Assembly: GCF_000280925.3 (NCBI RefSeq)
Contig: NZ_CP012109.1
Location: 2,624,501-2,688,500 of the forward strand
Length of the DNA stretch: 64,000 nt
Reading direction: 5' to 3'
Origin: Myxococcus hansupus
GTDB taxonomy: Bacteria > Myxococcota > Myxococcia > Myxococcales > Myxococcaceae
Shown here: positions 11,117 to 27,042 of the stretch, piece by piece
How positions within the stretch are numbered: position 1 is the stretch's first letter
Layout of the letters: each line of letters opens with the position of its first letter
Translations under genes and position numbers: made by a program
Notes under the pieces: generated by a model
The model's input: the letters and a program-made list of their open reading frames with translations, nothing else
The model's database searches: none
Told to the model about the DNA's origin: nothing

Positions 11117-11749
11117 GTGTTGGGACCGGAAACCTCAGACGAGCGGCTGATGCTCGCCTTCCAGGCGGGGGAGCCGCGCGCGTTCGAGGCGCTGGTGCGC
11201 AAGCACCGGACGCCGGTGTTCAACTTCATCCTTCGCTTCACCGGGCACCGGGCCCGGGCGGAGGACGTGCTGCAGGAGACGTGGCTGAAGGTGGTTCGGA
11301 ACGCGGGCGAATACACGCCCAAGGCGAAGTTCACGACCTGGCTCTACACGATTGCGAGGAACCTCTGCGTGGACAGCGCGCGCAAAGAGAGCTACCGCCA
11401 GGCGTCTTCCCTGGACGCCCCGTCACCGGGTTCGGAACGGGACGAGGCGCGCCCCCTGGGCGACGGGCTCCCCGACGCGGGCGCCAGTCCCGAGCGCGGC
11501 GCCTACAACGCCCGCTTGCGTCCCATGCTGGAGCGCGCGCTGGCGGCGCTTCCGGAAGAGCAACGCGAGGTCTTCACCTTGCGTGAGTACAGCGGCATCC
11601 CCTTCAAGGACATCGCGGAGGTGACGGGCGTGTCCGAGAACACGGTGAAGAGCCGCATGCGTTACGCACTCGAGGGGCTGCGCCGCCGCCTGGCGGAGAT
11701 GGGCGTGGACGGCGACCTCGCCGAGGACGGAAGGACGGTGGTGGGATGA
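11117..11749 (+). CDS. ECF-subfamily RNA polymerase sigma factor
   Basis: The 210-residue protein has sigma region 2 (AFEALVRKHRTPVFNFILRF ... RAEDVLQETWLKVVRN ... FTTWLYTIARNLCVDSAR) and region 4 (LPEEQREVFTLREYSGIPFKDIAEVTG followed by SENTVKSRMRYALEGLR). A loop of about 50 residues rich in Pro, Gly and acidic residues separates them, longer than usual. It should direct RNA polymerase to promoters held off by the anti-sigma factor encoded downstream with an ATGA overlap. The GTG start fits an AAGGAG ten bases upstream; a TTG immediately after it is the alternative. Confidence 0.9.
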   Translation: MLGPETSDERLMLAFQAGEPRAFEALVRKHRTPVFNFILRFTGHRARAEDVLQETWLKVVRNAGEYTPKAKFTTWLYTIARNLCVDSARKESYRQASSLDAPSPGSERDEARPLGDGLPDAGASPERGAYNARLRPMLERALAALPEEQREVFTLREYSGIPFKDIAEVTGVSENTVKSRMRYALEGLRRRLAEMGVDGDLAEDGRTVVG

Positions 11750-13170
11750 ATCCTCAGAACGCGCACGCGCACGAGGACCGGTTGCTCGACTTCGCCTACG
11801 GCGAGCTGCCCGTGCCCGAAGCCCGTCTCGTCGAGGCACACCTGGAGGGCTGTGCCCGCTGCTCGCAGGCCCTGGATGAAATCCGCGGCGTGCGTGCCAC
11901 CATGTCCCAACTGTCCGTGGAGTCCGCGCCGGACGCGGGGCTGGAGTCGCTGATGGCGTACGCCCAGCAGGCCGCGCGACGCGCCGCCGCGGGGCCCGAG
12001 CCGAAGCCGAGCCGCTGGCGCCGCTGGCTGTTGCCGGTGGTGGGGCTGGCCTCCGTCAGCACCCTGGGCATCGTGACGTTTCAGGCCCGCTCGCCCGAGC
12101 TCACCCAGCCGGATTTGCGCGCGGCCGAGGTGCAGTCGCCATGGGCCGCGAAGGACTCCGCGCCAGCTCCTGCGGCGCCCGTCGCGCCGGCCCCGACCGC
12201 CGCCGCACCCGCTCCGGTGCCTCCTCCCTCGGGGGTGAAGGTTCCCGCGGAGTTGATGGCCTCCGCGCCGGAGTGGGATGGCGACAAGGCCCAGAAGCCG
12301 TCCGGGCCCAGCAAGAACGCGCGAATGGCGGACCTGGGGGGGCAGGAGCGCCTGCGCGCGGACGATTGGGCCAACGCGGGAAGTGGTGGCGGCCTGGGCA
12401 AGCGGGGGAGCCAGGAGAGCGCCAGCAAATCGAAGTATGCGCCGTCCACGAGCGCCCGGGCTCGCGCGGAGGCGCCCGCGCCCGCGCCCGCCTCGAAGCT
12501 CGCGCTCTCGGAAGGTGCGGCTCATGACGACGAGGAGTCCCTCGTCATGGCGGAGCGGCGCGTGCCGGACTCCCAAGCCCCCATGAACGTGCCTCCGCGG
12601 GACTCGCTCCGGGTGGGGATGTCTCGGGCTGAGAAGAAGACCGCTGCCGCCGATGACTTCGCGGACAGGGATGCGCCCGCCGCCATGGCGAAGGCCGAGG
12701 CCGAGGTCGCGCCTCCGCCTCCGCCCAAGGGCCAGCCACTTGGTGAACCCGCGCCGGGCGCACCGTCGGAGGTGGCGGCCATTGGCTCCCCGCAGGGTGC
12801 CTCCGCCCCCGTGATGCGCAAGGAGCAGTCCGTCCCGGCGCAGTCCGCTGCCCGGCCATCGAAAGCGTCCGTGACGGTGTTGTCACAGGAGGCGAGGGTG
12901 GCTTCCCAGGCGGGAGACCGTTCCCAGGAGGCCGGGCTGATCCGCGCGGCGCTGGCGGCGGGGGCTTCCGGATCCGAGCGGTTGGATTTGTTGAACCGCC
13001 TGTGTGAGGCTGAGTTCGCCCTGGGTATGTATTCAGCGGGCGTCGAGACGTGTAACCTCGTGATACATGAAGCCCCCGGCTCGAGCGCCGCCAGCGCGGC
13101 CCGCCGGCGGCTCACGCGTGAGTCGGAGCGACGTCTCGCGCCTACGGAGCGCGGTAACCCCCCGAAATAG
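11746..13170 (+). CDS. Zinc-finger anti-sigma factor with large periplasmic domain
   Basis: Residues 1-80 form a cytoplasmic zinc-binding anti-sigma (ZAS) domain with the HxxxCxxC motif at His32, Cys36 and Cys39. A single membrane helix (WLLPVVGLASVSTLGIVTF) lies near residues 91-109. The remaining roughly 360 residues are outside the cytoplasm, Ala/Pro-rich and disordered-looking, and end in a TPR-like helical segment (LIRAALAAGASGSERLDLL then SAGVETCNLVIHEAPGSSAA). It overlaps the sigma gene and should hold that sigma at the membrane until an envelope signal arrives. The Tad-like cluster begins 96 bases downstream. Confidence 0.85.
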   Translation: MNPQNAHAHEDRLLDFAYGELPVPEARLVEAHLEGCARCSQALDEIRGVRATMSQLSVESAPDAGLESLMAYAQQAARRAAAGPEPKPSRWRRWLLPVVGLASVSTLGIVTFQARSPELTQPDLRAAEVQSPWAAKDSAPAPAAPVAPAPTAAAPAPVPPPSGVKVPAELMASAPEWDGDKAQKPSGPSKNARMADLGGQERLRADDWANAGSGGGLGKRGSQESASKSKYAPSTSARARAEAPAPAPASKLALSEGAAHDDEESLVMAERRVPDSQAPMNVPPRDSLRVGMSRAEKKTAAADDFADRDAPAAMAKAEAEVAPPPPPKGQPLGEPAPGAPSEVAAIGSPQGASAPVMRKEQSVPAQSAARPSKASVTVLSQEARVASQAGDRSQEAGLIRAALAAGASGSERLDLLNRLCEAEFALGMYSAGVETCNLVIHEAPGSSAASAARRRLTRESERRLAPTERGNPPK

Positions 13171-13266
13171 CTGTCGGTGCTTTCTCAGGAAATGGGAGAG
13201 AACGTAGGCGCAGGTCTGTCCATTTGACCGATGCGCTTCCGACACCTGTCCCGGGATAATGGCTTC

Positions 13267-14256
13267 ATGGGACAGGAAGCACATGAGCCGGGGACGCAGG
13301 GGGCGTCTCGCCGGCAATCGGGTCAAGCCGCGGTCGAAGCGGCGATGATCATGCCGCTCGCCGTCTTCATGACGCTGGGGATCATCCAGCTCACGATGAT
13401 GCAGCACGCGAAGCTCATGACGGAGTACGCCGCCTACCAGGCCGCGCGTGCCGGCATCGTGTGGAACGGCAACAACGAGCGCATGCACGACGCCGCCATC
13501 GTGGCGCTGCTTCCCACCATGGGACGCACGGACGACATCGTCGAACTGGGGAAGACGTTCATCATCCACCAGCTCTACGACTCCGGCATGCGCACGTTGA
13601 ACTTCGGCGGTGGCCGCGTGCCCCGGACGGTCAACGGGTCCAACCTGTTCGGCGTCATCCGGGTGGACACCATCAGTCCCGCGTACTTCACGCCCATCGA
13701 CTCGATGTGGAAGCTGCGCAGCGGCTACAACTGGCAGGAGCTGGATTTCGACGGCGCGGACTCCTTTCCGGAGGTTCCGTCGCTCGAAAACCACATCCGC
13801 AAGTTCTTCAACCTGCCCGAGCCGGACGACGCGGAGCTGGTGTTCCGCAAGTCCACGCGTCTCACCATCCGCCTTCGCTACTGGTACCAACTGCGGGTGC
13901 CCTTCGCGAACTCCATCATCTTCTACTCCTGGTTCGCTTCGAACGCGGGCATGGCGCTGCGAGGCGCCATCGACCGAAGCACCGTGGATCCGCGCGCGAA
14001 CATGATGAACCGCCGCGGCAACCTCACCCCGTTGCTCGCGGGGGCCCGCGGTATCGAGCACGAGATGGGATACGACTCCGTCTATCCGCTCGAGATGACC
14101 GTGCTCTGGATGCTCGCCAACGGCAGCATCCCCATCGTTTCGAATCTGGCCGGCAAGCGGTATTTCATGCCGCTGACGGCCACCTACAGCATGCGCATGC
14201 AGTCCAACTTCCACCGCAAGTGGATCATGCATCTGAACCCCGACTGGGGTCTGTAA
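13267..14256 (+). CDS. TadE-like large pseudopilin (Tad/Kil-type system)
   Basis: The 329-residue protein begins with a basic leader and a type IVb prepilin-like cleavage motif, RRQSGQAAVEAAM. If cleaved after Gly, Glu falls at +5, as in TadE/TadF pseudopilins; a hydrophobic helix (IMPLAVFMTLGIIQLTMM) follows. The rest, about 270 residues, is a large folded domain of unknown structure, much longer than classical TadE. The ATG at 13267 is used; an in-frame ATG at 13231 would add 12 residues. A GATAAT sits just upstream at 13255. It heads a run of same-strand pilus genes to 27,042 and would be a minor pilin or tip component. Confidence 0.75.
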   Translation: MGQEAHEPGTQGASRRQSGQAAVEAAMIMPLAVFMTLGIIQLTMMQHAKLMTEYAAYQAARAGIVWNGNNERMHDAAIVALLPTMGRTDDIVELGKTFIIHQLYDSGMRTLNFGGGRVPRTVNGSNLFGVIRVDTISPAYFTPIDSMWKLRSGYNWQELDFDGADSFPEVPSLENHIRKFFNLPEPDDAELVFRKSTRLTIRLRYWYQLRVPFANSIIFYSWFASNAGMALRGAIDRSTVDPRANMMNRRGNLTPLLAGARGIEHEMGYDSVYPLEMTVLWMLANGSIPIVSNLAGKRYFMPLTATYSMRMQSNFHRKWIMHLNPDWGL

Positions 14257-14277
14257 GAGGAAGAGGACTCCCGACCC

Positions 14278-15867
14278 ATGTTCACCCGGACCCTCCGACA
14301 GAGTTTCCGCCGCCAGGAAGGCCAGGCGTTGGTGCTGGCCGCCCTGATGGTGTTGATCATGTCCATCGCCGTGTTGACCACCGTCAACATCGGCCACACG
14401 GTGCATGAGCGCATCCGCCTTCAGAACACGGCGGACTCAGCGTCGTACTCCATGGCCGCCATGGAGGCGCGCGCGTTCAATTTCTACGCGTATGCCAACC
14501 GCACGCAGGTGTCTCACTACGTGTCGGCGATGATGTGGCAGTCGCTGCTGTCGCTCATCTACTCCGCTGAGGCCTTCCTCACGGACATCTACGGCTTCAT
14601 GCGCACGTTGAATCCGTGCGCGGGCAAGACGAGCAATCTCTTCTGGAAGATAGCCTGTCCCATTCTCGAAAACGTCATTCCGTACGTGAGTGCCGTCATC
14701 AAGGCCATTGGCCGGATCATGACCGCGTACAGAAACATGTTCTTGAGACCCATCCAGCAGGTCATCCGCTCCGCCAACCCGGACCGGATCATCGGTGAAT
14801 GGATCATCCCTGCGCACCGTGTGTTGAACGGCGTCATGTACTTCGCGTCGCAGGCGGTGATGATGTCCGCGTCCACGCACGTGACGCAGACCACCCAGAC
14901 GGTCATCGACGACAACGACAGCAACATCTCCTCGCTGGCCAGTCAGCTCGCGACGGGTATCTACAGCCAGTGTCTCTTCAGCCAGGCGCACAACCCGCAC
15001 GCGGGTGGCAAGCCGCTGACGCCGAACACCTGGAAGAACCCCTTCGGCGCGCTGGACGTGACGAAGAAGGCCGCCAATGACCCCATCGCTCGCGCCAAGC
15101 GCTCCATGGGTGGCATCTCCAACGCCACGCGCTACGCGTGTGACGCCACCGGCGGCGCCTGCCCCCAGGGCTTCATCACCAGCCGTCGCATGGGTGACCT
15201 GCTGCCGCTGCCGGACATGCTCGGCTTCATGCGGGACTTCTTCAACGGCGGCGTCGACATCCCCGGCATCTTCGAGTTCGGCAAGATTGGCCAGACGCGC
15301 ATGCTGTCCGCGACCTTCCCCAACGCCAACGTCCTCCGGGCGGGGCGGGGTCCCGGCCAGGATGGCCGCAACTACATCCGCGACTGGAACGACAACCTCA
15401 GCCCGTGGGGCATGACGGCGCAGGGTGACAACATCGGCTCGGACGACCCGTACTGGCTCAAGTTCGGCCCCGCGGAGATCGACGTGGGCGTGGGCAAGGC
15501 GGACAACCCGGTGTCGTGCACCAAGAACGACGACTACTGGAAGTGCTTCGGCGACAACCGCAAGGGCAAGGGTGACAACAACACCGCCAAGCTGCCCTAC
15601 CGCCACATGACGAAGACGAGCATCTGGGCGCTCAACGACACGGACAGTGGTCGCACCCGTGGCGGTCTGCACTGGCGCGTGAACTACACGAACAACTCGG
15701 AGCGTTGGCAGGGCCACGTGCGGCCGAGCGGCCCGAGGGTGAAGTGGGTCTGCACCGCTCGCGCATCTGCGTGCTGGAACTGGCGTTCATCTGCTGGGCC
15801 CGCACGGATGTCTTCGCGGCCAACGTCCGGCCCGTGCAGGACGGTCACCACCCCTGGGGCGGTCTGA
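14278..15867 (+). CDS. TadG-like large pseudopilin, 5' part of a frameshifted gene
   Basis: The N-terminus RRQEGQALVLAALMVLIMSIAV is the TadG-type signal/anchor, with Leu instead of Glu at +5. The soluble domain begins RLQNTADSASYSMAAMEARA, typical of Tad-like/TadG proteins. The correct frame runs to about position 15,731. Beyond that this frame gives an Arg/Ser/Ala-rich stretch that ends at 15867, while a convincing continuation appears in another frame to 16361. One missing base would explain it; the CCC run at 15732-15734 is the simplest site. The intact protein would be about 694 residues. This is either a sequencing error or a real mutation that would inactivate a structural pilin-like component. 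Confidence 0.75.
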   Translation: MFTRTLRQSFRRQEGQALVLAALMVLIMSIAVLTTVNIGHTVHERIRLQNTADSASYSMAAMEARAFNFYAYANRTQVSHYVSAMMWQSLLSLIYSAEAFLTDIYGFMRTLNPCAGKTSNLFWKIACPILENVIPYVSAVIKAIGRIMTAYRNMFLRPIQQVIRSANPDRIIGEWIIPAHRVLNGVMYFASQAVMMSASTHVTQTTQTVIDDNDSNISSLASQLATGIYSQCLFSQAHNPHAGGKPLTPNTWKNPFGALDVTKKAANDPIARAKRSMGGISNATRYACDATGGACPQGFITSRRMGDLLPLPDMLGFMRDFFNGGVDIPGIFEFGKIGQTRMLSATFPNANVLRAGRGPGQDGRNYIRDWNDNLSPWGMTAQGDNIGSDDPYWLKFGPAEIDVGVGKADNPVSCTKNDDYWKCFGDNRKGKGDNNTAKLPYRHMTKTSIWALNDTDSGRTRGGLHWRVNYTNNSERWQGHVRPSGPRVKWVCTARASACWNWRSSAGPARMSSRPTSGPCRTVTTPGAV

Positions 15868-16361
15868 CGCCGTTCATGCACTTCGAGCCCGGTCAGCTCG
15901 GCGCCGTGTGCAACCCGACGGCGAACGCGTCCATGTCCAACCCGGCCCGCCGCCAGGCGGACTTCAACCAGCCCACCGCCTGGGTGGCGTTGAACAAGGA
16001 CCCGGAGCAGGTCGTGAACCGTGACAACAAGGACGGCACGGGCACCAACGCACCCGCGCTCCTGAACGACGAAGGCAAGGTGAAGTTCGCCTTCACGCCC
16101 GACTCGGAGGGCCTGGAGATGCTCAACAACCGGAAGAAGTTCCTCGGCCTGGTGGAAGGCCTGAACGTCATCTCCCGCGGTCAGTCCTACTACCACCGGC
16201 CGGGCAACTGGGCGGAGCAGCCGAACTTCTTCAATCCCTACTGGCGCCCGCGTCTGGCGTCCGTGTTCCAGGGCCGTCACTCGCTGCCGAAGATTGGTGA
16301 GATGATGGATGCGCTGCCCGGTCCGCTCCAGGGCATCGCCCCGAAGATCATCACGCACTGA
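15735..16361 (+). CDS. TadG-like large pseudopilin, 3' part of the frameshifted gene
   Basis: This frame continues the upstream protein without a plausible start codon of its own. It reads EGEVGLHRSRICVLELAFIC and goes on through VFAANVRPVQDGHHPWGG, GRRHSLPKIG-like and IAPKIITH segments, with codon use like its neighbours. There is no ribosome site or membrane anchor at its beginning. It ends eight bases before the next TadE-like gene, as expected for the true end of a 14278-16361 gene. Read it as the C-terminal third of one protein rather than a separate gene. Confidence 0.65.
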   Translation, partial: EGEVGLHRSRICVLELAFICWARTDVFAANVRPVQDGHHPWGGLTPFMHFEPGQLGAVCNPTANASMSNPARRQADFNQPTAWVALNKDPEQVVNRDNKDGTGTNAPALLNDEGKVKFAFTPDSEGLEMLNNRKKFLGLVEGLNVISRGQSYYHRPGNWAEQPNFFNPYWRPRLASVFQGRHSLPKIGEMMDALPGPLQGIAPKIITH

Positions 16362-16369
16362 GGACTGCC

Positions 16370-17563
16370 ATGCGCGCCCGTCACCACTTGCGTTCACGCT
16401 CACGAGGTGCCGCCACGGTCGAGTTCGCTCTCTCCGTGCCGCTCCTCGTGACGATCCTGATGTTCAGCATGTACCTCACGGAGTTGGTGAGGGCGAAGCT
16501 CAAGCTCCAGGAGGCGGCGCGCTACGCCGTCTGGGAGATGACCAGCTACGCGCTCTCCGACTTCGCGAACGGCCGGCATGACGATGCCTTCGAGGACGCC
16601 CGCCAGGAGGCGCACGACGAGTTCGTCGAGCGCTACAAGGACATGGACTCGGTGGAGCCCAACGGCCCGGGTGGGAACTTCATCGCCCGCTTCACGGACG
16701 TGCAGGCGACCATCACCAACAAGGAGATCGCGCTCCTCGAGAGCGGGATGCTCAGTCGCCCGAGCACCAGCGAAGGAGGCGGGCTGGCAGGCGCCATCCT
16801 TGGCCCCTTGAACAACGGCATGGGATGGGTGTTGAACCAGTGGGGTTTCAACAACAAGGGCTGGGTCGAGTCCGAAGTCCAGATGACCTACCAGAACACC
16901 ATCCTGCCCACGAGCTACCTCGACGAGAGTGGAGGTCGCGGCGGCTTTTTCAAGGAAAACATGATGGGCGGCCGTGACCTGGGCAGCATGACGCTCAAGT
17001 CCAAGTACTCCATGTACGCCAACGGCTGGCACATGCCGGACGGCGGCGACGCCATCATCCGTGGCCGCCGCGCGGGTCAGCACACCGGTGGTGACCTGAA
17101 CCAGCCCCACGGCCTCTACCGTCAGGTGGACCGCATGGTGTACCTGGGCTTCGCCTCCACGCTGGACAGCCTGGGCATTGGCGCCATCCTGGATGTCGTC
17201 GCCTCGGTGCTCCCCAACTTCCTGGGCACCTTCGTGGTGGCGCGCAACTACGGCGTGGGCAACTCGCAGAAGGGTGACTGCACGGGTCTGGCCCAGTACG
17301 ACGCGAAGGCGAGCAGCGGCCTGCACGTCATGCACAAGCGCCGCTTCGAGCTGACCGACCACGAGCGTCCGAACTGCTTCGACACCGCGCCGTTCCGCGA
17401 CGAGATGACGTACAACGACAGCAACTACATCAAGGTCTTCAACGCGCGCGGCGAGTACTACATGGGTTGCAAGCGGGCCATGGCCGACGACCCGACCGAC
17501 CCGGATGCCCGGCCGGAGTCCACGCGGAATGATGAGCAAGACCAGAAGATTCCTTGCGAGTAG
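16370..17563 (+). CDS. TadE-like large pseudopilin
   Basis: The 397-residue product begins with a basic leader, then the motif SRGAATVEFALSVPLLVTIL. Cleavage after Gly puts Glu at +5, the recognition residue for type IVb prepilin peptidases, and the helix VPLLVTILMFSMYL follows. The segment KLQEAARYAVWEMTSYAL right after the helix is typical of TadE proteins. The remaining 340 residues form a large extracytoplasmic domain of unknown fold, including a Cys-containing end (GDCTGLAQYD, RPNCFDTAPF, YMGCKRAM). It would be exported as a minor pilin with the other two large pseudopilins. Confidence 0.8.
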   Translation: MRARHHLRSRSRGAATVEFALSVPLLVTILMFSMYLTELVRAKLKLQEAARYAVWEMTSYALSDFANGRHDDAFEDARQEAHDEFVERYKDMDSVEPNGPGGNFIARFTDVQATITNKEIALLESGMLSRPSTSEGGGLAGAILGPLNNGMGWVLNQWGFNNKGWVESEVQMTYQNTILPTSYLDESGGRGGFFKENMMGGRDLGSMTLKSKYSMYANGWHMPDGGDAIIRGRRAGQHTGGDLNQPHGLYRQVDRMVYLGFASTLDSLGIGAILDVVASVLPNFLGTFVVARNYGVGNSQKGDCTGLAQYDAKASSGLHVMHKRRFELTDHERPNCFDTAPFRDEMTYNDSNYIKVFNARGEYYMGCKRAMADDPTDPDARPESTRNDEQDQKIPCE

Positions 17564-18338
17564 TGTGAACGGGGTCCGGGTGGGCCTCCTGTGCGCGGTG
17601 CTGGCCTCCGGGCCGGTGGCCGCCGAGCAGGAGCTGCCCATCTACCCGGGCACCCTCCACACGCGCATTGGCAACGACCTCGTGATTGGCGGGGAGTACT
17701 ACCGCCTCGCGTACTTCACGACGCCTGACCCCATGGACAAGGTGGCGCTCTACTTCGCCAAGAAGTGGCAGGAAGAGGGCTACCCCACCGTGGTGGAAGG
17801 GGACATGAAGGACGAGGGCGTGGTGTCCGCGCTCTACACCCGCGAGGGCCTTCAGCGCGGCGTCGTGCTGCGCAAGCACCTGGGCAAGACGGTGGGCTTC
17901 ACCGTGCTGCGCGACCTCTGGGTGCGGCCGCCCAAGAAGCCGGCGCCCGGCCTGATTTCGCTCGAGGGCGCGCTGTACAGCCAGGACCTCTCCACGCGGG
18001 ATGACCCGGGCGGCTCCCAGAGCCGCACCACCCTGGTGACGGGGGAGCTGACGAAGGTGCAGCAGCAGGTGAACGCGGAGCTGGAGAAGCGGGGGTATGC
18101 CCCGGTGCGCCACTCCGCGCTGAAGGTGGGCGGCGGCACGCAGTTGACCATGGAGCACGCGCGCAAGGGTGAGCAGGTGGTGACGACGCTGTCGCCCGCG
18201 GAAGAGGGTGTCACCGCGGTGGTCCAGATGTGGATTGGCTCGGACCGCCCGGACGCGGTGCCCAACGACGATGCCGTCCGTCAGAGCCGCCAGGCCTGGG
18301 AGAAGGACCAGTCGCAGAAGCAGGAGGGCGCCAAGTGA
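17529..18338 (+). CDS. Exported protein of unknown function in the Tad-like cluster
   Basis: The 269-residue protein has a clear signal peptide (VGLLCAVLASGPVAAEQ, cleavage expected after VAA near residue 33). The mature part begins ELPIYPGTLHTRIGNDLVIGGEYYRLAYF and has two similar-sized halves, each with an alpha/beta look. I recognise no family. The ATG at 17529 follows GGAG by ten bases; a second ATG comes right after it. The start lies inside the 3' end of the TadE-like gene (35-base overlap), and the next gene overlaps its stop, so it is tightly coupled to the pilus genes and probably serves the same envelope machine. Confidence 0.75.
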   Translation: MMSKTRRFLASSVNGVRVGLLCAVLASGPVAAEQELPIYPGTLHTRIGNDLVIGGEYYRLAYFTTPDPMDKVALYFAKKWQEEGYPTVVEGDMKDEGVVSALYTREGLQRGVVLRKHLGKTVGFTVLRDLWVRPPKKPAPGLISLEGALYSQDLSTRDDPGGSQSRTTLVTGELTKVQQQVNAELEKRGYAPVRHSALKVGGGTQLTMEHARKGEQVVTTLSPAEEGVTAVVQMWIGSDRPDAVPNDDAVRQSRQAWEKDQSQKQEGAK

Positions 18339-19144
18339 GGACCCTGTTGGTGGTGGCCGCGGTGGTGCTCGCACTGCCCACGCGGGCGGATGCGAATCCG
18401 GCGCGTGAGCTGGTGCAGCACATGTCCCGAGGCGCCCGGCCAGCCCGCATGGGCGACTGGGTGACGTACCGCTTCAACGGCGGTGGCACGCGTGTGTACT
18501 ACTGGCGCCTGGCCGTGGTGGGCGAGGAGAAGGACAAAGAAGGCCGGGACGCGGTGTGGGTGGAGATGGAGGCGGGGACGCACCCGGCCATGAAGTCGCC
18601 GCTCTCGCAGATGCGCATGCTGGTGGCGCGCGAGGGCGACGAGATTCGCTACGACGCCATCTCCCGGCTCTACATCGGCACCGGTTTCAACCCGCCGCAG
18701 GAGTACTCGGACGAGGCGCTCGAGCAGGTGGTGAAGAAGCAGCAGGCGGAAGCGGAGAAGGACAAGAACGCGCCGCCGGAGAAGCCCGCCAAATTGCCTC
18801 AGGGCGTGAAGCCCGTGACGCGTTCGGGCAAGGAAACGCGGTTGATGACGCTCGCCGGGACGTTGCCAGCCGTCCCGGTCGAGGTCGTCCTGAAGAACAC
18901 CGTCATCAAGCGGATGTGGCTCAGCCGCGAGATTCCGTTGCTCAACCTGGCGAAGATTGAGATTCCGGGCATCGGCCACGCCATGGAAGTGGCGGAGTAC
19001 GGCATCGACGCCAAGCCCCGCATGCGCATCCCCGCTCCAGACGCTCCGAAGATCAAGCTGGAGTACGCGGATGCTATACTCGATGACCTGCCCGGCGACG
19101 CGGAGTCCGCGCACGGACACGACACCTCTGAGGATTCGCCGTGA
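18335..19144 (+). CDS. Exported protein of unknown function in the Tad-like cluster
   Basis: The GTG at 18335 overlaps the upstream stop and follows an AGGAGG ribosome site. The first residues, RTLLVVAAVVLALPTRADA, are a signal peptide. The mature protein of about 250 residues has strand-rich segments (GDWVTYRFNGGGTRVYYWRLAV, DAVWVEMEAGTHPAMKSPLS) and a charged, probably helical stretch of Lys/Glu around residues 130-155. The family is not recognised. Its position between pseudopilin genes and a small pilin gene, with overlaps at both ends, suggests a periplasmic accessory role. Confidence 0.75.
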   Translation: MRTLLVVAAVVLALPTRADANPARELVQHMSRGARPARMGDWVTYRFNGGGTRVYYWRLAVVGEEKDKEGRDAVWVEMEAGTHPAMKSPLSQMRMLVAREGDEIRYDAISRLYIGTGFNPPQEYSDEALEQVVKKQQAEAEKDKNAPPEKPAKLPQGVKPVTRSGKETRLMTLAGTLPAVPVEVVLKNTVIKRMWLSREIPLLNLAKIEIPGIGHAMEVAEYGIDAKPRMRIPAPDAPKIKLEYADAILDDLPGDAESAHGHDTSEDSP

Positions 19145-19368
19145 ACCACCCGAAGACGCTGCGTTCCCGCGCCCGTAACCGTCGCGGGCAGGCCATGCTG
19201 GAGTACTCGCTCCTGAACTGGATTCTCGTCGTCGCGCTCATCATCGGCGCGTCGGTGAAGGTCAACTGGTCCGAGGACCGTCAGTCCAACGTCATCGACC
19301 TGTTCATGGAGGCGTACCAGATTTATTACGACTCCTTCTACTTCGTGCTGAACCTGCCGTTCCCGTGA
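19141..19368 (+). CDS. Small Flp/TadE-like type IVb pilin
   Basis: This 75-residue protein has the compact layout of a Flp pilin: a basic leader, the cleavage motif RRGQAMLEYSLLNW and a hydrophobic helix (WILVVALIIGASVKVNW). Cleavage after Gly leaves Glu at +5 and Tyr at +6, the Glu-Tyr pair that marks Flp-type type IVb pilins. Unlike the three other pseudopilins in the cluster it has only about 35 residues after the helix, so it is the best candidate here for a fibre-forming subunit. The GTG start overlaps the previous stop, and the next GTG overlaps its own stop. Confidence 0.75.
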   Translation: MNHPKTLRSRARNRRGQAMLEYSLLNWILVVALIIGASVKVNWSEDRQSNVIDLFMEAYQIYYDSFYFVLNLPFP

Positions 19369-20111
19369 CGGCGCGCAGTGAGGTGGGGCAGCCGTCCCCA
19401 CTGGGCCTGCGGCTGGTCCACGCCGCCTTGTTCCTCGCCTTCGCCGCTGGCGTGGGCGTGGTGTCCGTTCCCGAGTGGACGCACCTGGGCAGCGCGCTGG
19501 CGCAGCCCTTCCACGCGGGCGCCGCGCCTCGCTGGCTGGTCCTGATGGGCTCGGTGCTCGCCGCGGTGGGCACCGTGCGTCTGGCCTGGGAGCTGCTCCG
19601 TGGCCGGTCCGCGCCCTTGTGGGCTTCCGGCGTCATCCTGCTGGGCGTCATGAGCACGCTCGCGGGAGGCCGTCCCCAAGGGTTGGAGCAGTCCCGTGCC
19701 GAAGTGACGGCGAACCTCGACCTGCTGCGCGTGGCCCGGCGCGTCCACTTGCAGATGGTGCACGAGCTCCAGTCCCACGGAGAGACGCCGCAGGCGCAGG
19801 ACGTGTGGCGCACCGCCCTGGCGCAGGCGGGCGCGGACCAGGTTCGCGTCCACACGCGCACGTTCCAATCGCTGCATCCCCAGATTGCCTGGATGCCCTC
19901 CGAAAGCGCCGTGCCGGAGCCGCTCGTCCCCGGACAGTTGGCCGTCCATGTGACGTCGGATGGCGTGGGCTTCAGCGTGCGGCTCGTGGGGTTGGAGCAG
20001 GGCAGGCCCGTGCTCCTGAAGGACGACCAGGGCGCGACACTCGTCCTGCGCGGCCTCTACAACCCGGACCTGCCGCCCCCCACGCCACCGCAGGTTCCGC
20101 CCACTCCCTGA
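19365..20111 (+). CDS. Membrane protein of unknown function in the Tad-like cluster
   Basis: The 248-residue protein starts at a GTG overlapping the pilin stop. Three hydrophobic segments lie in the first 100 residues: LVHAALFLAFAAGVGVVSV, WLVLMGSVLAAVGTVRLAW and LWASGVILLGVMSTLAGG. An extracytoplasmic domain of about 140 residues and a Pro-rich end (PPPTPPQVPPTP) follow. No known family was recognised. A helical segment (RAEVTANLDLLRVARRVHLQMVHEL) follows the last membrane pass, as in pilus-assembly anchor proteins. Its role is inferred only from location. Confidence 0.7.
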   Translation: MTARSEVGQPSPLGLRLVHAALFLAFAAGVGVVSVPEWTHLGSALAQPFHAGAAPRWLVLMGSVLAAVGTVRLAWELLRGRSAPLWASGVILLGVMSTLAGGRPQGLEQSRAEVTANLDLLRVARRVHLQMVHELQSHGETPQAQDVWRTALAQAGADQVRVHTRTFQSLHPQIAWMPSESAVPEPLVPGQLAVHVTSDGVGFSVRLVGLEQGRPVLLKDDQGATLVLRGLYNPDLPPPTPPQVPPTP

Positions 20112-20227
20112 CACCCCGCGGAATCACCAGGGTTGCTGGTGACCCGAGACTCAGCCAGTCTCGTCCGACCTCATGACGCGGTAGGCCCGGCCGGCGGGCC
20201 CGCCCTGAATTGATGAAGGAGCGCGAA

Positions 20228-20971
20228 ATGGCGCATGCGGCATGGAAGTGGGCGGTTGTCGCGGCGGCGGTGGGAGCGGGAATCCTGGCGTGCACGGGCG
20301 ACGACGATGACGGCGGTGGGAATCGGCCGCCGCCCTCCAACGAGTTCGATGCGGGCGTGAACGAGTTCCGTCCCGGCCTGGGCGAGGACGACGGCGAGCC
20401 GGTGGGCACGCCGTTCAACCTGCCCACGGGCATCAGCTACGCCGGGACGCTGCGCGGCGCGAGCGAGTTCACCGGCGAGTGCGAGAACGCCGGCACGGAG
20501 TCCCAGGGCAGCGGGGCCTACGTCCGGGTCTGCGTGCCGCTCCGCAATGACACGGGTGGGCCCGTGGAGGTGACATTCCCCCCGGGCATCGTCGTCGTGT
20601 CCACCTCCGAGGGCCGCAACCAGAACGGCTTGCTGATCGAGCGTTCCATCATCACGGTGCCGCCCACGCCTCCAGGTCCTGGCGGCCGGGACGACGCGGG
20701 CACCCCGGATGGTGGGGTGGAGGAGAACGCCTTCATCGTTCCGCTGTACATGTACTGCCTGAACGAGGAGCGTGACCCGTCCAACCCGTACATCACCTAC
20801 GAGGTCGGCCCCATCACCTCGGATGCCGCGCTCCAGGAGCTGCTGCGCCTGCTGGACGGAAAGCGCATCGACACACCGGAGAAGGTCAGCGTGGTGCAGG
20901 ACGCCCTCTACAGCATCACCGAGGGGCGCGGCCTGACGACGCCGGACCGCGAGGCCATCAACCGCCTCTGA
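20228..20971 (+). CDS. Putative lipoprotein of the Tad-like cluster
   Basis: The 247-residue product starts at the ATG at 20228, preceded by AAGGAG six bases upstream. A signal peptide (KWAVVAAAVGAGILAC) ends in a lipobox with the cysteine at residue 21, followed by an acidic TGDDDDGG run. The mature part contains VRVCVPLRNDTGGPVEVTFPPGIVV and a late helical region (LQELLRLLDGKRIDTPEKVSVVQ). No family was recognised. It lies 116 bases after the previous gene and just upstream of the internal promoter for cpaB. Confidence 0.75.
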   Translation: MAHAAWKWAVVAAAVGAGILACTGDDDDGGGNRPPPSNEFDAGVNEFRPGLGEDDGEPVGTPFNLPTGISYAGTLRGASEFTGECENAGTESQGSGAYVRVCVPLRNDTGGPVEVTFPPGIVVVSTSEGRNQNGLLIERSIITVPPTPPGPGGRDDAGTPDGGVEENAFIVPLYMYCLNEERDPSNPYITYEVGPITSDAALQELLRLLDGKRIDTPEKVSVVQDALYSITEGRGLTTPDREAINRL

Positions 20972-21030
20972 CGCGGCACGGCGTGAGTCCCCGGATTGCG
21001 CGCGATACAGAGTTGTCGCGAGAGGTGGTT

Positions 21031-21060
21031 TTGACACCCGGTGTATCGCACGGCTAACAT
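21031..21060 (+). promoter_or_regulatory. Candidate sigma-70 promoter ahead of cpaB-tadB-tadC
   Basis: TTGACA at 21031-21036 is a perfect -35 consensus and is followed after 18 bases by TAACAT at 21055-21060. Predicted transcription would begin near 21067, leaving a leader of about 108 bases before the cpaB ATG. It would let the assembly-platform genes and the FHA genes be expressed independently of the pseudopilin genes upstream. Confidence 0.55.
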
Positions 21061-21174
21061 CGCGCGCCATCCGCAGATTGCATTGCACTGTATTCCAACA
21101 CCCGCTCTGGACTCCACTTCGGACTCCATCATCGCCGCCGAACGGCTCCCCCCCGTTCTGGAGGTTTCTGAACC

Positions 21175-21990
21175 ATGCTGAAGGGCAAGACTCCGCTCGT
21201 CGTCGCGCTTGTGCTGGGCCTGTTGGCCGGTGTCATCGCGTATTCCGCCATCAAGAAGAAGGAGGCGGACGTCCGCCGCGGATGGAACCTGGTGCCCGTT
21301 GTCGTGGCGGCGCAGGACGTCCCTGAAGGCACGGTCATCACCTTCGAGATGATCTCGCAGCGCTCCGTGCCGGAGCAGTTCGTGACGTCGTCCGTCGTGC
21401 GTCCGGACTCCGCGTCCTACATCGTCAACCAGAAGGTGCTGGTGGCGCTGCAGGCGGGTGACCCGCTGCTGTGGAGCCAGTTCGAGACGACCAAGGCCGC
21501 CGAGCGCCTGTCGTCGAAGGTGCAGAAGAAGGCCCGCGCCATCACCATCGAGGCGAAGAACACCACGTCCGTGGGCGGCTGGATTCGCCCCAACGACCAC
21601 GTGGACGTGATTGGCACCTTCCGCGATCCGCAGACGGACGAGAACGTCGCCGTGACGCTGCTCCAGAACGTCATCGTGGTGGCCACCGGCAAGATCACCG
21701 GCACCACCAACGTGAACCTCATCCCGGAGAACCAGCGCGAGTACAACAACATCTCGCTGATGGTGCTGCCGGAAGAGGCCGAAATCCTGGTGCTCGCCAC
21801 GGAGCTCGGTCAGTTGACGCTCAGCCTCCGCAACGAGGACGACGTGGACCTCATCGAGGAGCGCGGCCGTGCCACCATCAGCACGCTGCTCTCCGGTGAG
21901 CGCACCCGCGTGCTGGAGCAGAAGCGCCGGGAGATCATCCAGATCATCAAGGGCGGTGCCGAGCGGGCCGCAGGCGCCGGCGCGCCGTGA
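21175..21990 (+). CDS. cpaB: Flp pilus assembly protein CpaB (RcpC)
   Basis: The 271-residue protein has an N-terminal membrane helix (PLVVALVLGLLAGVIAYSAI), then the SAF-like domain of CpaB: VPVVVAAQDVPEGTVITFEMISQRSVP. The RcpC/CpaB signature comes next, including a GDPLLWSQFE segment and SVGGWIRPNDHVDVIGTF. CpaB is a periplasmic part of Tad secretion machines, thought to link platform and secretin. A GGAGG site lies upstream. It is the first gene after the internal promoter. Confidence 0.92.
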   Translation: MLKGKTPLVVALVLGLLAGVIAYSAIKKKEADVRRGWNLVPVVVAAQDVPEGTVITFEMISQRSVPEQFVTSSVVRPDSASYIVNQKVLVALQAGDPLLWSQFETTKAAERLSSKVQKKARAITIEAKNTTSVGGWIRPNDHVDVIGTFRDPQTDENVAVTLLQNVIVVATGKITGTTNVNLIPENQREYNNISLMVLPEEAEILVLATELGQLTLSLRNEDDVDLIEERGRATISTLLSGERTRVLEQKRREIIQIIKGGAERAAGAGAP

Positions 21991-22031
21991 TGGCGTGCGT
22001 CGTCCACCCTCGCTCATAGGGAAGCGCGCAC

Positions 22032-22877
22032 ATGCTTGCAGGAATCGTCCTCCTCCTCGTCACCGGCTCGGTCTTCTTCTTCAGCCTGGTGATCTTCAGC
22101 GTCCTTTCGAAGGCGTATGAGCAGTACCAGGAACGCTACGTCGCCAAGTCGATGAACGACTTGAGCGACATGTTCCTCTTCATCGACCCACGCCAGATGT
22201 TGATCCTCAACATCGCGTGCATGTGCTTGTTGGGGATCCTGTCGTACATCATCTTCAACCCCATCCTCGCGGTGGTGGCCACGGTGTTCGGCTTCTTCCT
22301 GCCGATGCTGATGGTCAAGCACTACCGGAAGCGGCGCATCAAGAAGTTCAACGTGCAGCTCGTGGACGCGCTGCAGGCCATGGCCAACGCGTTCAAGGCC
22401 GGTCTCACGTTCCCGCAGGCCATCGAGCACGTGGCCCGCGAGGCGCTGCCGCCGCTGTCCCAGGAGTTCGGGCTCTTCGTGAAGGAAGTGAAGCTCGGTG
22501 TTCCGCTGGAGGAGGCGCTCATCAACATGGGCCGCCGCGTGGGCAGTGACGACCTGGAGTTGGTCGTCGTGTCCACCAACATCGCCCGTCAGCTCGGCGG
22601 CAACATGGCCGAGATGTTCGAGACGATCTCCACGGTGATCCGCGAGCGCTTCCGCCTCGAGGGCAAGATCGACGCGCTCACCTCTCAGGGCAAGCTGCAG
22701 GGGTGGATCGTCGCGGCGATGCCCGCCGTGCTCGGCATGGTGCTCAACTACATGCGGCCCGACCTGATGGAGCCGATGATGAACCACATCTTCGGTTGGA
22801 TCCTCGTGGTCATCATCGCCATCATGGAAGTGATGGGCATCCTCATCATCCGGCGCATCGTCAACATCGATATCTGA
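22032..22877 (+). CDS. tadB: Tad inner-membrane platform protein TadB (T2SF domain)
   Basis: This 281-residue protein has hydrophobic helices at both ends and a central type II secretion F domain (KKFNVQLVDALQAMANAFKAG ... EHVAREALPPLSQEFG ... NMAEMFETISTVIRERFRLEG). The order matches TadB: N-terminal helices, T2SF domain, and two C-terminal helices (GWIVAAMPAVLGMVLNYM and ILVVIIAIMEVMGILII). It would form the inner-membrane platform with TadC and receive motion from a TadA-type ATPase that is not encoded in this window. Confidence 0.92.
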   Translation: MLAGIVLLLVTGSVFFFSLVIFSVLSKAYEQYQERYVAKSMNDLSDMFLFIDPRQMLILNIACMCLLGILSYIIFNPILAVVATVFGFFLPMLMVKHYRKRRIKKFNVQLVDALQAMANAFKAGLTFPQAIEHVAREALPPLSQEFGLFVKEVKLGVPLEEALINMGRRVGSDDLELVVVSTNIARQLGGNMAEMFETISTVIRERFRLEGKIDALTSQGKLQGWIVAAMPAVLGMVLNYMRPDLMEPMMNHIFGWILVVIIAIMEVMGILIIRRIVNIDI

Positions 22878-22887
22878 GAGGTGCACC

Positions 22888-23778
22888 GTGGACGATGTCC
22901 TGACGCCAATGTTGATCGGCAGCTCGGCGCTCCTCTTCGCGGGGGCGGTGGGCTTCCTCGGGCTCGGGCTGTACCAGACGATGCTTGAGCGGTTCCTCAC
23001 GGAGGTCCGTGACGAGTCGACGGGCGGCATGAAGGGTTTCGGCTCGGTGGCCATCCGCCGCCTGGGCTCGATGAACCGCCGCTTCATGTGGCCGGGCTAC
23101 GAGGCCAAGGCGCGCCGCAACCTCATCAAGGCCGGCGAGCCGCAGATGTACAAGCCCGAGGACATCATGGCGCTGCAGGAAGTCAGCGCCGTGGTGGGCC
23201 TCCTCATGGGGCTCATCCTGCTCAACGGCTTTGGTGTGAGCCTGGTGTGGTCGCCGCTGTTCCTGCTCTTCGGCATGTACTACCCGCTGATGTGGCTGAA
23301 CGATCAGGTGAAGAAGCGCCACCTGCTCATCAGCCGCGCGCTGCCCTACAGCCTCGACCTGCTGACGCTGTCCGTCGAAGCCGGTCTGGACTTCACGGCG
23401 GCCCTGGCCAAGGTGGTGGAGAAGGGCAAGGCGGGCCCGCTGCGCGAGGAGCTGCAGCTCGTCCTCAAGCAGTTGAAGATGGGCAAGACGCGTGAAGAGG
23501 GTCTCAAGAGCATGATTGTTCGCGTGGACCTGCCGCCGCTGACGACGTTCGTCACGGCGCTCATCCAGGCGGACAAGATGGGCACCAGCTTGGGCAAGGT
23601 GCTGCGCATCCAGTCCACGCAGATGCGCATCGACCGCACCCAGCGCGCGGAGAAGCTCGCGGGTGAGGCGCCGGTGAAGATGCTCTTCCCGCTCATCGCC
23701 TGCATCTTCCCGACGGTGTTCATGGTGCTGTTCGGGCCCATCGTGTTCCAGTTCATGTTCGGAAACATCTCGGGGTAG
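22888..23778 (+). CDS. tadC: Tad inner-membrane platform protein TadC (T2SF domain)
   Basis: The 296-residue protein pairs with TadB. It has N-terminal helices (LLFAGAVGFLGLGLYQTML, then VVGLLMGLILLNGFGVSLVW), a T2SF domain (LPYSLDLLTLSVEAGLDFTAA ... LADKMGTSLG-like) and a final helix (LIACIFPTVFMVLFGPIVFQF). The SLDLLTLSVEAGLDF segment is the TadC signature. The GTG start has GAGAGGTG just upstream and lies 10 bases after tadB. Confidence 0.92.
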   Translation: MDDVLTPMLIGSSALLFAGAVGFLGLGLYQTMLERFLTEVRDESTGGMKGFGSVAIRRLGSMNRRFMWPGYEAKARRNLIKAGEPQMYKPEDIMALQEVSAVVGLLMGLILLNGFGVSLVWSPLFLLFGMYYPLMWLNDQVKKRHLLISRALPYSLDLLTLSVEAGLDFTAALAKVVEKGKAGPLREELQLVLKQLKMGKTREEGLKSMIVRVDLPPLTTFVTALIQADKMGTSLGKVLRIQSTQMRIDRTQRAEKLAGEAPVKMLFPLIACIFPTVFMVLFGPIVFQFMFGNISG

Positions 23779-23784
23779 TGCCCC

Positions 23785-25260
23785 GTGCCCATCCTCCTGA
23801 CCATCACCCAGGGGCTCCAGCAGGGGCGGGAGCTCGTCTTCGAGCAGGCCGAGGTGAACATCGGCCGCACGTCGGAGAACGACCTGGTGCTGCATGACCA
23901 TGGCGTGTCGCGAAGGCACGCCCGCATCGTGCTCCGCGACGAGAAGTACTTCGTCGCGGACATGGGCAGCTCCAACGGCACCGTGCTCAACGGGGCCTTG
24001 CTGCCCGGTGAGCAGCAGCTTCGGGATGGCGACAAGATTGGCGTGGGCCCGGTGGAGTTCACCTTCGTCTGGGTGCCCCCGGACAGCGACGAGGACGCCA
24101 CCCGGCCCATTCGCCGGGGCGACCCCGTTCCCGTCGACCCGGACGCCACGCGGCCCATCCGCCTGAACGACCCGATTCCCGCCGAGAGCGGCATCGTGCT
24201 GCCGGATGGATACCCCACCGCGCCGCAGCCCCTCGTGGCGCCGGTGCGTCCGGGGTCCGCGGCCCCGGCGCGGTCGACCACCGCGTCCGTGGCGAAGGTG
24301 GAGTCAGGCGAGGCCCCGACGGCGGCGGAGCGCGCCCGTCAGCGCCGCGAGCTTTCGAGCACCCAGGCGGGCCGGTTGCGCCTGTGGTGGGGACAGCTTT
24401 CCCTGCCGGCGCGGTTGGGTGTGAGCGCGCTCGGCGGCGGCATGGTGTTGGCGCTCGTGGGCCTCCTGGCCTCGTTCTTCATGCCGAGGGGAGACGGTCG
24501 GCCCTCGGGCGCGGAGCCGGAGGACCTGGGCTTCGAGGTGATCGCGGACTCGTTCGGGCTGGGCGAGGGCGTGACGTGGGAGAACCCGGACCACAAGTCC
24601 TTCGCGTTCCAGTTCGTCACCCCCACGCGGGCGGTGGCGGTGGTGCACTACATGGCCCGTGGCATCTCCAAGGAGGAGGTGTCGCTGGTCCTGAACGGCG
24701 TGGACCTGGGCTGGGTGCCTCCGGACGTGAGCATGGCCACGGAGCGCGAGCTGGAGCAGATTCTCCCGCCCGCGGTGCTGCGGCGGGGCGAGCTCAACTC
24801 CATCGTCTTCGACAACGTGCGCAACCCGCCCGGGCAGGAGACGTGGCGGGTGTGGAACCTGCGGCTGGAGATCATTCCCGTGCCGGAGCTTCCGCAGGAA
24901 GAGCTGCTGGCCAAGGCGCGCCAGTACGTCACGGCGGGAGCCCGCTTCTACGAGTCGCGCGACGTCGGGGCGGAGAATCTCTTCAAGGCGTGGCAGCAGT
25001 ACCGTTTCGCGTGGGTGACGCTGGAGGCACTGGACACGAAGCCGGACATCTACCAGGACGTGCGCTTCCAGCTCGCTCAGGTGTCAGGCGAGCTCGACCA
25101 TAAGTGCAGCCAGTTGATGCTCGATTTTCAGCGGAGCGTTCAGTACCGGAATGCGCGGACCGCCCGTGCCGCGTTGCAGGAAATGGGTCGGCGCTTCCCT
25201 ACGGCCGAGCATCGCTGCCACAATCTAGGTTTGCAGTTGGCTTACGAGCACGAGCTGTAG
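23785..25260 (+). CDS. FHA-domain membrane protein of the Tad-like cluster
   Basis: Residues 1-95 are a forkhead-associated phosphothreonine-binding domain with the conserved GRTSEND, SRRHARI and SSNGTVLNG motifs. A Pro/Ala/Thr-rich linker of about 110 residues, rich in DATRPIR repeats, leads to one membrane helix near residues 213-233 (VSALGGGMVLALVGLLASFFM). A C-terminal domain of roughly 250 residues contains strands and helices (NLFKAWQQYRFAWVTLEAL, RTARAALQEMGRRFP). FHA proteins accompany many secretion systems and read Thr phosphorylation. The linker threonines (DATRP) could be kinase targets. The GTG start lacks a strong ribosome site, so coupling to tadC is likely. Confidence 0.85.
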   Translation: MPILLTITQGLQQGRELVFEQAEVNIGRTSENDLVLHDHGVSRRHARIVLRDEKYFVADMGSSNGTVLNGALLPGEQQLRDGDKIGVGPVEFTFVWVPPDSDEDATRPIRRGDPVPVDPDATRPIRLNDPIPAESGIVLPDGYPTAPQPLVAPVRPGSAAPARSTTASVAKVESGEAPTAAERARQRRELSSTQAGRLRLWWGQLSLPARLGVSALGGGMVLALVGLLASFFMPRGDGRPSGAEPEDLGFEVIADSFGLGEGVTWENPDHKSFAFQFVTPTRAVAVVHYMARGISKEEVSLVLNGVDLGWVPPDVSMATERELEQILPPAVLRRGELNSIVFDNVRNPPGQETWRVWNLRLEIIPVPELPQEELLAKARQYVTAGARFYESRDVGAENLFKAWQQYRFAWVTLEALDTKPDIYQDVRFQLAQVSGELDHKCSQLMLDFQRSVQYRNARTARAALQEMGRRFPTAEHRCHNLGLQLAYEHEL

Positions 25261-25296
25261 GCGCGTGCTCCCTTCGTCAGGAAGTCGGTGATTCGC

Positions 25297-27042
25297 ATGT
25301 CCAACGGTTCCCCTCCGGCACGCCGCAGGCCTCCGTCCGGGGCACCTTCGGGTGGGACCGGGTCCCGTCCCGCCGCGCGCAGGACGGCCGCCCGGCCCGC
25401 GCCCGCCCCGGTCTCCTCCGCTCCCCGGCTCATTTGCGTCGCAGGCCCCAAGAACGGCGAGGAGTTTGCCCTGTCCGAGGACGAGTACGTCATCGGTCGA
25501 GCGACCGATAACGCCATTTGCATCCCCGACACCTCCGTGTCCCGCAAGCACGTCGCCGTGCGCAAGAGCGGCACGGGCTGGACGGTGAGCGACCTGGGCT
25601 CGGGCAACGGCACGCTCGTCAACGGCGACGTCATCAACGACGAGACGCCGCTGTCCAACGGTGACGTCATCACGCTGGGCGACACGGAGCTTCGCTTCGA
25701 GGACGTGGCCAACTCCACGATGATGGTGGGGGCACCCGCGCCGGCTCCTGGCCCGCGTCCGCGTCCGGGGGCGTCCGGTGCCCGTGGCGCGATTCCGGCC
25801 CGTCCCGGGCCTCGGGGCGAAGGGGGGCGCGTGCGCAGCTCCCGGCATGCGGCCGCCGCCGCGCCCACGCCGGAAGAGCTGAAGAAGAAGAAGATCATCA
25901 AGCTGGCCGCGGTGGGCGTCGTCGTCCTCCTGTTCGCGGGTCTGGGCCTGGTCCGGATGAACGTCCAGCAGCAGCAGGCGGTGGCGGCCGAGGAGGCGCG
26001 GCAGGGCAAGTCCCGCCGCGAGATGCTCGGCAGCCTCTTCCAGGACGCGAAGAACCTGGTCCGCGAGGGCAAGTGGGTGGAGGCGAAGGCCAAGCTGGAG
26101 GAGCTCCAGACCGAGGCGCCCGACTACCCGGGCGTGGCCGACTACCTGGGCCATGCCGCGCGCGAGATTCCCATCCAGGAGAAGCTGACGGGCGCGCGCG
26201 CGGCGCTGGCGAAGAAGGAGCTGGGCAAGGCCAGCGGGCTGCTGGGGAGCACCGGCGAGAGCCAGTTCCTCTACGAGCAGGTCAACGCGGCGAAGCGCGA
26301 GCTGTTCGAGGCCGCGGACACCCGCACCCGCGAGGCCCGGAAGCTGCTCGACGAGAACCAGCTCGACATGGCGAAGGCCATCACCGACGACGTGCTGGTG
26401 GCCTTCCCGGAGCACCGGGACGCGAAGCTCATCAACGAGCAGGCGGCGCAGGCCATCATCGTCCGTGACACGCCTCGGCCGGTGGTGCAGGGGCCGGCGC
26501 CCAAGCCGTGGGAGCCCGCCGTGGACCGCTTCCGCGACGGTGACATGTCCGGCGCGGTGGCCATCCTCAATGCGTGCATGGCGCGCACGCCGCAGTGCAA
26601 GAAGGTGCTCGGTCAGGTGACGGAGTTCGGCAACCTGTACAAGCGCCTGGAGGACCTGGATGCCAAGGGTCTGTCCAAGTTGATGAACCTGGACAAGGAG
26701 ATCACCGGCGGGCGTCCGAGCAAGATGGCGCGCAACGCGGGCACCCGCGCGGCCACCATCTTCTACAAGGGCGCCACCGCGGCGAAGGCGTCGGGGCAGT
26801 GGAGCCGCGCCATGGACTACTCGCGCAAGGCGCTCCAGGCCGACCCGGGCCACACCGGCGCCACCAACATCATCAGCGAGCTCCGGACGAAGGCGAAGGA
26901 CGTCTACCTCCAGGCCTACTCCTTGAAGGACGGCAGCCCCGAGGAGGCCCTGCCCAAGTTCAAGGACGTGGTGGCGATGACGCCGCCCGACGACGAGTAC
27001 CACGACAAGGCGAAGACCTGGGTCGAGAAGCTGTCGCGATGA
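25297..27042 (+). CDS. FHA-domain protein with helical repeat region, Tad-like cluster
   Basis: The 581-residue protein has a basic, Pro-rich N-terminal stretch, then an FHA domain near residues 45-140 (IGRATDN, SRKHVAV, GSGNGTLVNG). A low-complexity linker and a membrane helix (IIKLAAVGVVVLLFAGLGLV) near 205 follow. The last 350 residues are helical, TPR-like repeats (AKAKLEELQTEAPDYPGVADYL, ARKLLDENQLDMAKAI, WSRAMDYSRKALQADPGH). With its upstream neighbour it forms an FHA pair, possibly linking Ser/Thr kinases to the Tad machine. The ATG at 25297 fits AGGAAG 12 bases upstream better than a GTG at 25288. Confidence 0.85.
   Translation: MSNGSPPARRRPPSGAPSGGTGSRPAARRTAARPAPAPVSSAPRLICVAGPKNGEEFALSEDEYVIGRATDNAICIPDTSVSRKHVAVRKSGTGWTVSDLGSGNGTLVNGDVINDETPLSNGDVITLGDTELRFEDVANSTMMVGAPAPAPGPRPRPGASGARGAIPARPGPRGEGGRVRSSRHAAAAAPTPEELKKKKIIKLAAVGVVVLLFAGLGLVRMNVQQQQAVAAEEARQGKSRREMLGSLFQDAKNLVREGKWVEAKAKLEELQTEAPDYPGVADYLGHAAREIPIQEKLTGARAALAKKELGKASGLLGSTGESQFLYEQVNAAKRELFEAADTRTREARKLLDENQLDMAKAITDDVLVAFPEHRDAKLINEQAAQAIIVRDTPRPVVQGPAPKPWEPAVDRFRDGDMSGAVAILNACMARTPQCKKVLGQVTEFGNLYKRLEDLDAKGLSKLMNLDKEITGGRPSKMARNAGTRAATIFYKGATAAKASGQWSRAMDYSRKALQADPGHTGATNIISELRTKAKDVYLQAYSLKDGSPEEALPKFKDVVAMTPPDDEYHDKAKTWVEKLSR

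Follow-up and report, generated by a model that had tools for sequence, protein, structure and literature searches.

Genes of the locus and the broken frame

The window, which is the whole stretch of 64,000 nucleotides of Myxococcus hansupus DNA that was analysed, contains on its forward strand the following features:

13231 to 14256, forward strand: TadE-like minor pilin in the kilM4 position (PF07811, E 8.7e-12)
14278 to 15867, forward strand: predicted kilN4 orthologue as assembled (Pfam Tad, PF13400, residues 15-58, E 5.4e-8)
15732 to 15735, forward strand: break, at a C run with one base less than its counterpart in the nearest relative (DNA alignments)
15736 to 16361, forward strand: continuation of kilN4 (about 207 residues, C-terminus ...PKIITH) in another frame (frame of the relatives)
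16370 to 17563, forward strand: TadE-like minor pilin in the kilL4 position (PF07811, E 3.1e-7)
19141 to 19368, forward strand: small Flp-type pilin of 75 aa in the kilK position (RRGQAMLEYSLLNWILVVALIIG, judged by eye)
21175 to 21990, forward strand: CpaB/KilB (TIGR03177, E 2.1e-57)
22032 to 22877, forward strand: inner-membrane platform protein of the KilG/KilH pair (T2SSF)
22888 to 23778, forward strand: inner-membrane platform protein of the KilG/KilH pair (T2SSF)
23785 to 25260, forward strand: FHA-domain protein, putative cluster member by position
25288 to 27042, forward strand: FHA-domain protein, putative last cluster gene by position

On the basis of the gene order, the locus is identified as kil cluster II and the broken gene as the orthologue of kilN4, whose predicted product is a large minor pilin at the tip (Tip4) of the Kil pilus, a Tad-type pilus with which Myxococcus kills its prey on contact. 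The gene lies between the kilM4 and kilL4 positions, with the counterparts of kilK, kilB and kilG/kilH in the same cluster; two genes without Pfam match separate the kilL4 and kilK positions, and two further genes stand between the Flp-type pilin and CpaB. In all 17 loci that include cluster context, the gene is directly preceded by a kilM4-like gene and directly followed by a kilL4-like gene. The orthology is based on this arrangement and on the strain AM003 (L010) of M. xanthus, in which the order is the same and the protein is 94% identical to that of the nearest relative (L008), rather than on a direct alignment with mxan_4659 of DK1622. The TadG-like N-terminal domain scored 33.5 bits with PF13400, against a cut-off of 22.3, and an NCBIfam search of the three pseudopilins gave no match. 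An AlphaFold model of the intact protein of a relative (19 rows) had a pLDDT of 38 and a pTM of 0.29, too poor to place the distal domain.

As assembled, the ATG at 14278 opens a frame of 529 aa with its stop at 15867, in which 486 native residues are followed by 43 out-of-frame residues. The frame departs from the native reading at the CCC in 15732-15734. The native continuation lies in another frame, within an ORF of 218 aa with a TTG start (15705-16361), and ends at 16361, 8 bases ahead of the next ATG (16370). The protein of an intact relative aligned with the window in two pieces, residues 1-488 at 99% and residues 484-694 at 97% identity, and because both pieces match so closely the agreement of the downstream frame is not due to chance. 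When the DNA was aligned with that of L008, the sole gap in the gene was at the C run, which is one base shorter in the window; the alignment used to show the run length comprises the window and eight other stretches, three of them belonging to the free-standing paralogue described below.

These data confirm what an earlier sequence-only reading of the locus had observed. It had placed a frameshift near 15,731 in a large TadG-like gene, and the frame is indeed left at 15732-15735 and taken up again in a continuation to 16361. Its placement of the break at the CCC in 15732-15734 agrees with the letters, the Arg/Ser-rich nonsense that it described past the break is seen after residue 486 of the frame from 14278, and the one missing C that it proposed corresponds to the additional base in the run of L008 and to an intact protein spanning to residue 694. 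Its assignment to a TadG-like protein of a Tad/Kil machine was also correct, and is sharpened here to kilN4 of kil cluster II.

Related genomes and other KilN-like genes

Within the genus, 26 further genomes were searched; each of them has a full-length copy of the gene, and four have a second one. All 30 copies were single open frames without stops, of 688-933 aa (the frame may begin upstream of the start), and the two-frame arrangement was conserved in none of them (0/30). A further 19 loci, a set that partly overlaps the 26 genomes, all read through in one frame. In 18 of these 19 loci, two of which represent the free-standing paralogue, the frame measured 656-699 aa, and in the remote locus L026 it measured 544 aa; the long C-terminal part that the relatives have at 656-699 aa is split over two frames in the window. 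Orthologues ending at the same stop and followed by a separate gene, which the sequence-only reading had named as evidence against its frameshift, were looked for in these relatives and not seen. A search of a plasmid collection with the intact protein gave no match.

The part of the gene after the break still looks selected as a protein. Against L008, dN/dS was 0.016 before the break and 0.068 after it. For the 3' part against three further relatives, dN/dS was 0.138-0.157 with the window and 0.136-0.169 with the intact L008. With these three as outgroups, the changes on the branch leading to the window were polarised. After the break 4 were nonsynonymous, where neutrality would give about 32, and 10 were synonymous; before it, 1 was nonsynonymous and 15 were synonymous (3 and 10 codons unresolved). 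The rise from 1/15 to 4/10 across the break was not significant (Fisher 0.16). Since the downstream part is constrained, any real break would have to be recent.

An intact, free-standing paralogue of kilN4, about 75% identical, is located outside the window at G000:C1:755862-757949 (L002, L041), G000 being the genome of M. hansupus. A second kilN4-like gene occurs in 5 of 27 genomes of the genus, M. hansupus included. The paralogue stands alone in 5/5: when 15 proteins of the cluster served as queries, none but KilN4 itself had a match in the surrounding 9-14 kb. Four genes neighbouring the M. hansupus copy recur beside it in all four other genomes, in the same syntenic place. A tree was made from 18 of the 19 loci, to which the 5' part of kilN4 from the window and five copies taken from G000, G010 and G025 were added. 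In it, the five paralogue copies formed one clade (support 100/100), sister to kilN4 of the same species group (86/88). They are intact, of 692-698 aa, and constrained, with dN/dS values of 0.13-0.25 in the five pairs computed, and their conservation profile, which peaks in the first 100 residues, resembles that between kilN4 orthologues of similar identity. The paralogue could supply an alternative head for Tip4. The minor pilins KilN1-4 of M. xanthus are described as drawn from three-gene clusters (PMC12075869), and the word "orphan" is absent from the main text of that paper, the only one to deal with the protein among those that a literature search for KilN4 listed.

Five more KilN-like genes (L003-L007) are located in the M. 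hansupus genome at approximately G000:C1 7.69, 7.76, 7.22, 5.25 and 8.19 Mb. A KilM4-like gene adjoins each of them (5/5), and a KilL4-like match was found in two, within the short loci examined. In the BNCN01 records (L008, L012), titled Comamonas sp. KCTC 72670, the DNA of the kil cluster shares 92% identity with the window across 11.4 kb. Their source genome (G014) was placed in the same genus as M. hansupus, and the Comamonas label looks wrong.

Origin of the break

The genome of M. hansupus (CP012109) was obtained by PacBio RSII sequencing with P6C4 chemistry at 138x coverage, and assembled with HGAP (SMRT Analysis v2.0) and Quiver (PMC4765838); the main text of that paper nowhere mentions "Illumina". 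For Streptomyces albus SM254, sequenced with the same P6C4 chemistry at 262x and assembled with HGAP v3 and repeated Quiver passes, Illumina data served to fix 205 leftover indels in 7,170,504 bp, nearly all of them in G/C homopolymers (PMC4832174). Scaled from that genome, the rate gives approximately 271 indels in the M. hansupus genome, 1.8 in the 64-kb window and 6.2 in the approximately 217 kb aligned with the comparison genome G001. The break in kilN4 likewise amounts to an indel of one base at a G/C run, and the assembly is a long-read-only one made with P6C4 chemistry. The genome of M. macrosporus (G010, CP022203) was likewise obtained by PacBio/HGAP, and its authors reported possible frameshifts and dropped the genes concerned from the annotation (PMC5629066).

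A census of broken genes was carried out on M. hansupus and the comparison genomes G001, G010 and G025. It covered 400 kb around the window, compared with all three, and 400 kb elsewhere, compared with G025 and G010 (800 kb in total). A break was counted only if one short gap explained it in the DNA, if it was private to one genome, and if it was located at 20-80% of the gene length. Four genes were broken privately in M. hansupus, in each case by one base too few within or next to a G/C run; their lengths in the relatives are 2178, 457, 694 (kilN4) and 441 aa. The breaks in the genes of 2178, 457 and 694 aa were seen against all three relatives, and that in the gene of 441 aa was found with G025, G010 having the base too. 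In DNA alignments of kilN4, the one-gap rule held with G001 and G025 and failed with G010 (three gaps). By the same rule, no gene was broken privately in G001, G010 or G025. The first 120 kb of the G001 contig gave no long alignment to the M. hansupus stretch.

Outside the window, the other three broken genes (2178, 457 and 441 aa) lie at approximately G000:C1 2825157, 2720280 and 809556, and their breaks may be consensus errors of this kind as well.

With the largest denominators, the counts were 4/265 in M. hansupus versus 0/518 in G025 and G010 together (Fisher p 0.013), and without kilN4 itself 3/264 versus 0/518 (p 0.038). If one doubtful control locus was counted as a break, p was 0.047; with two or three such loci (2 or 3/518), p was 0.19-0.24 and significance was lost. 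Before this rule was applied, the two-frame hits located at 20-80% of the gene length were as follows for each query set:

M. hansupus (G000), region 1, queries G001, G025 and G010: 3/109, 6/126, 4/119
M. hansupus (G000), region 2, queries G025 and G010: 1/107, 0/139
G001: 0/111, 1/106, 1/106
G025: 0/123, 1/102, 1/138; region 2: 0/104, 0/109
G010: 2/124, 1/105, 2/142; region 2: 0/129, 1/109

Two frames, one of 754 aa (G025 the odd one) and one of 346 aa (differing in G025 and G010), were left out, as by eye they were gene boundaries at which the ORF caller had overrun a start. Also left out were a gene of 938 aa with several gaps (G010 the odd one) and several unclear cases, of 290 and 663 aa in G000, of 979, 283 and approximately 251-253 aa in G010, and of 664 aa in the start region of G001. 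Hits at 10-20% and 80-90% of gene length were excluded as mostly uncertain gene ends, an exclusion that favours the interpretation as sequencing error: clean single-base differences occur there in the controls too (e.g. 755 and 322 aa in G010, 456 aa in G001, 654 and 359 aa in G025). Two cases in the start regions of G000 (805 and 494 aa) were excluded under the same length rule. The census supports a sequencing error but cannot carry this conclusion alone, and the chemistry and the published error type weigh more.

The sequence-only reading had offered two explanations, an error in the sequence or the loss of an important component of the machine by this strain. The former is supported here; the latter was rated less likely, and the loss would probably not disable the machine. 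A real, recent deletion of one base would truncate KilN4 and leave Tip4 without its distal part, while the other tips would sustain the pilus and the prey range would perhaps be narrower. The assembly as deposited does show the break, and M. hansupus is a laboratory-maintained isolate that was first met as a plate contaminant (PMC4765838). Such a loss would probably be tolerable, because in M. xanthus the deletion of single tips is mild and because six other KilN-like genes with open frames are present in the M. hansupus genome: in M. xanthus no single-tip deletion was defective on agar, and the defects were partial and restricted to liquid, Tip4 outperforming the other tips on the prey that were tested (PMC12075869). 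In one published prey assay, the bacteria taken by M. hansupus were E. coli, P. aeruginosa, S. boydii and S. aureus; it failed on K. pneumoniae and V. cholerae, which were taken by all four compared strains (PMC12211065). Such a restricted range could agree with Tip4 having really been lost but does not point to it specifically: the preys not taken can be explained in many other ways, and B. subtilis, on which M. hansupus also failed, was not taken by 3/4 of the compared strains either (PMC12211065). Against a real deletion stand the lack of decay in the sequence past the break and the presence of the same type of break elsewhere in the genome, no commoner than the published residual error rate gives. 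A real loss of kilN4 in M. hansupus is, on balance, unlikely. Still more improbable is the proposal that KilN heads are interchangeable, so that the free-standing paralogue docks on the KilL4/KilM4 base and, with kilN4 truly broken here, replaces it and changes the prey range.

Two further explanations take the two frames as functional. The frames meet at a short C run, at which programmed ribosomal frameshifting or transcriptional slippage might join them. The relatives, in contrast, encode the protein in one frame (30/30 copies and 19/19 loci) with no conserved two-frame layout, and the C run here has only three bases, which is short for slippage; the probability of such a mechanism is very small. 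The other explanation, a shorter pseudopilin followed by a separate gene with its own start, could point to the ORF with a TTG start at 15705. That arrangement is absent in all the relatives examined, and the TTG with approximately the first nine codons of this ORF falls in a stretch that is conserved in the upstream frame (as aligned for 18 of the 19 loci, with kilN4 of the window represented by its 5' part), which leaves this explanation a negligible chance. Both were rejected, no examined relative having such an arrangement.

We infer, with a probability of about 0.85, that the break at 15732-15735 is a residual sequencing error. This conclusion is supported by the PacBio-only consensus, the position at a G/C run, the three further breaks of the same type and the constrained downstream sequence, as well as by the intact gene in the relatives and the lack of any second indel in the alignment with L008. 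In the living strain, kilN4 would most likely be intact and encode about 694 residues, and the Quiver consensus of this genome of 69% GC would have called one base too few in the C run. Weighing against an error are the small number of genes behind the excess of breaks, four with kilN4 among them, and the slightly greater nonsynonymous change after than before the break. In addition, M. macrosporus (G010) was sequenced by PacBio/HGAP and yet showed no private clean break at 20-80% of gene length, so the method need not leave breaks in a sample of this size.

If the break is an error, the deposited genome wrongly implies the loss of a predation gene. At the published rate, approximately 270 such indels may stand in CP012109, and claims of gene loss made from this assembly therefore need read support. 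If it is real, M. hansupus would be a natural Tip4-defective strain for prey-range testing.

Comparison with known systems

The break resembles the errors of the Streptomyces albus SM254 assembly in the chemistry and polisher, in the high GC content and in being a one-base indel at a G/C run. The HGAP version and the coverage differ between the two assemblies, and the errors of SM254 were demonstrated with Illumina reads, whereas the break in M. hansupus is known from the assembly alone.

In M. xanthus, kil cluster II comprises up to 14 genes, mxan_4648-4661, including KilB, KilG and KilH, with KilK as mxan_4655, KilL4 as mxan_4658, KilN4 as mxan_4659 and KilM4 as mxan_4660 (PMC8460266; PMC12075869). 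The cluster of the window likewise contains an Flp pilin and CpaB/KilB, together with a pair of platform proteins. Its genes are spaced as mxan_4655, 4658, 4659 and 4660 are, two genes parting kilL4 from kilK, and 14 ORFs chosen by us from 11746 to 27042 fit mxan_4661-4648. FHA proteins are named for cluster I in these papers, and the two FHA genes of the window are assigned to cluster II only by their position. With kilN4 counted, M. hansupus may have up to six tip loci, compared with four reported for M. xanthus. KilN4 of M. xanthus bears the distal domain of the Tip4 complex (PMC12075869). The gene of the window resembles it in its Tad/TadG-type N-terminus and long C-terminal part, and differs from it in this assembly by a frame that is broken after residue 486.
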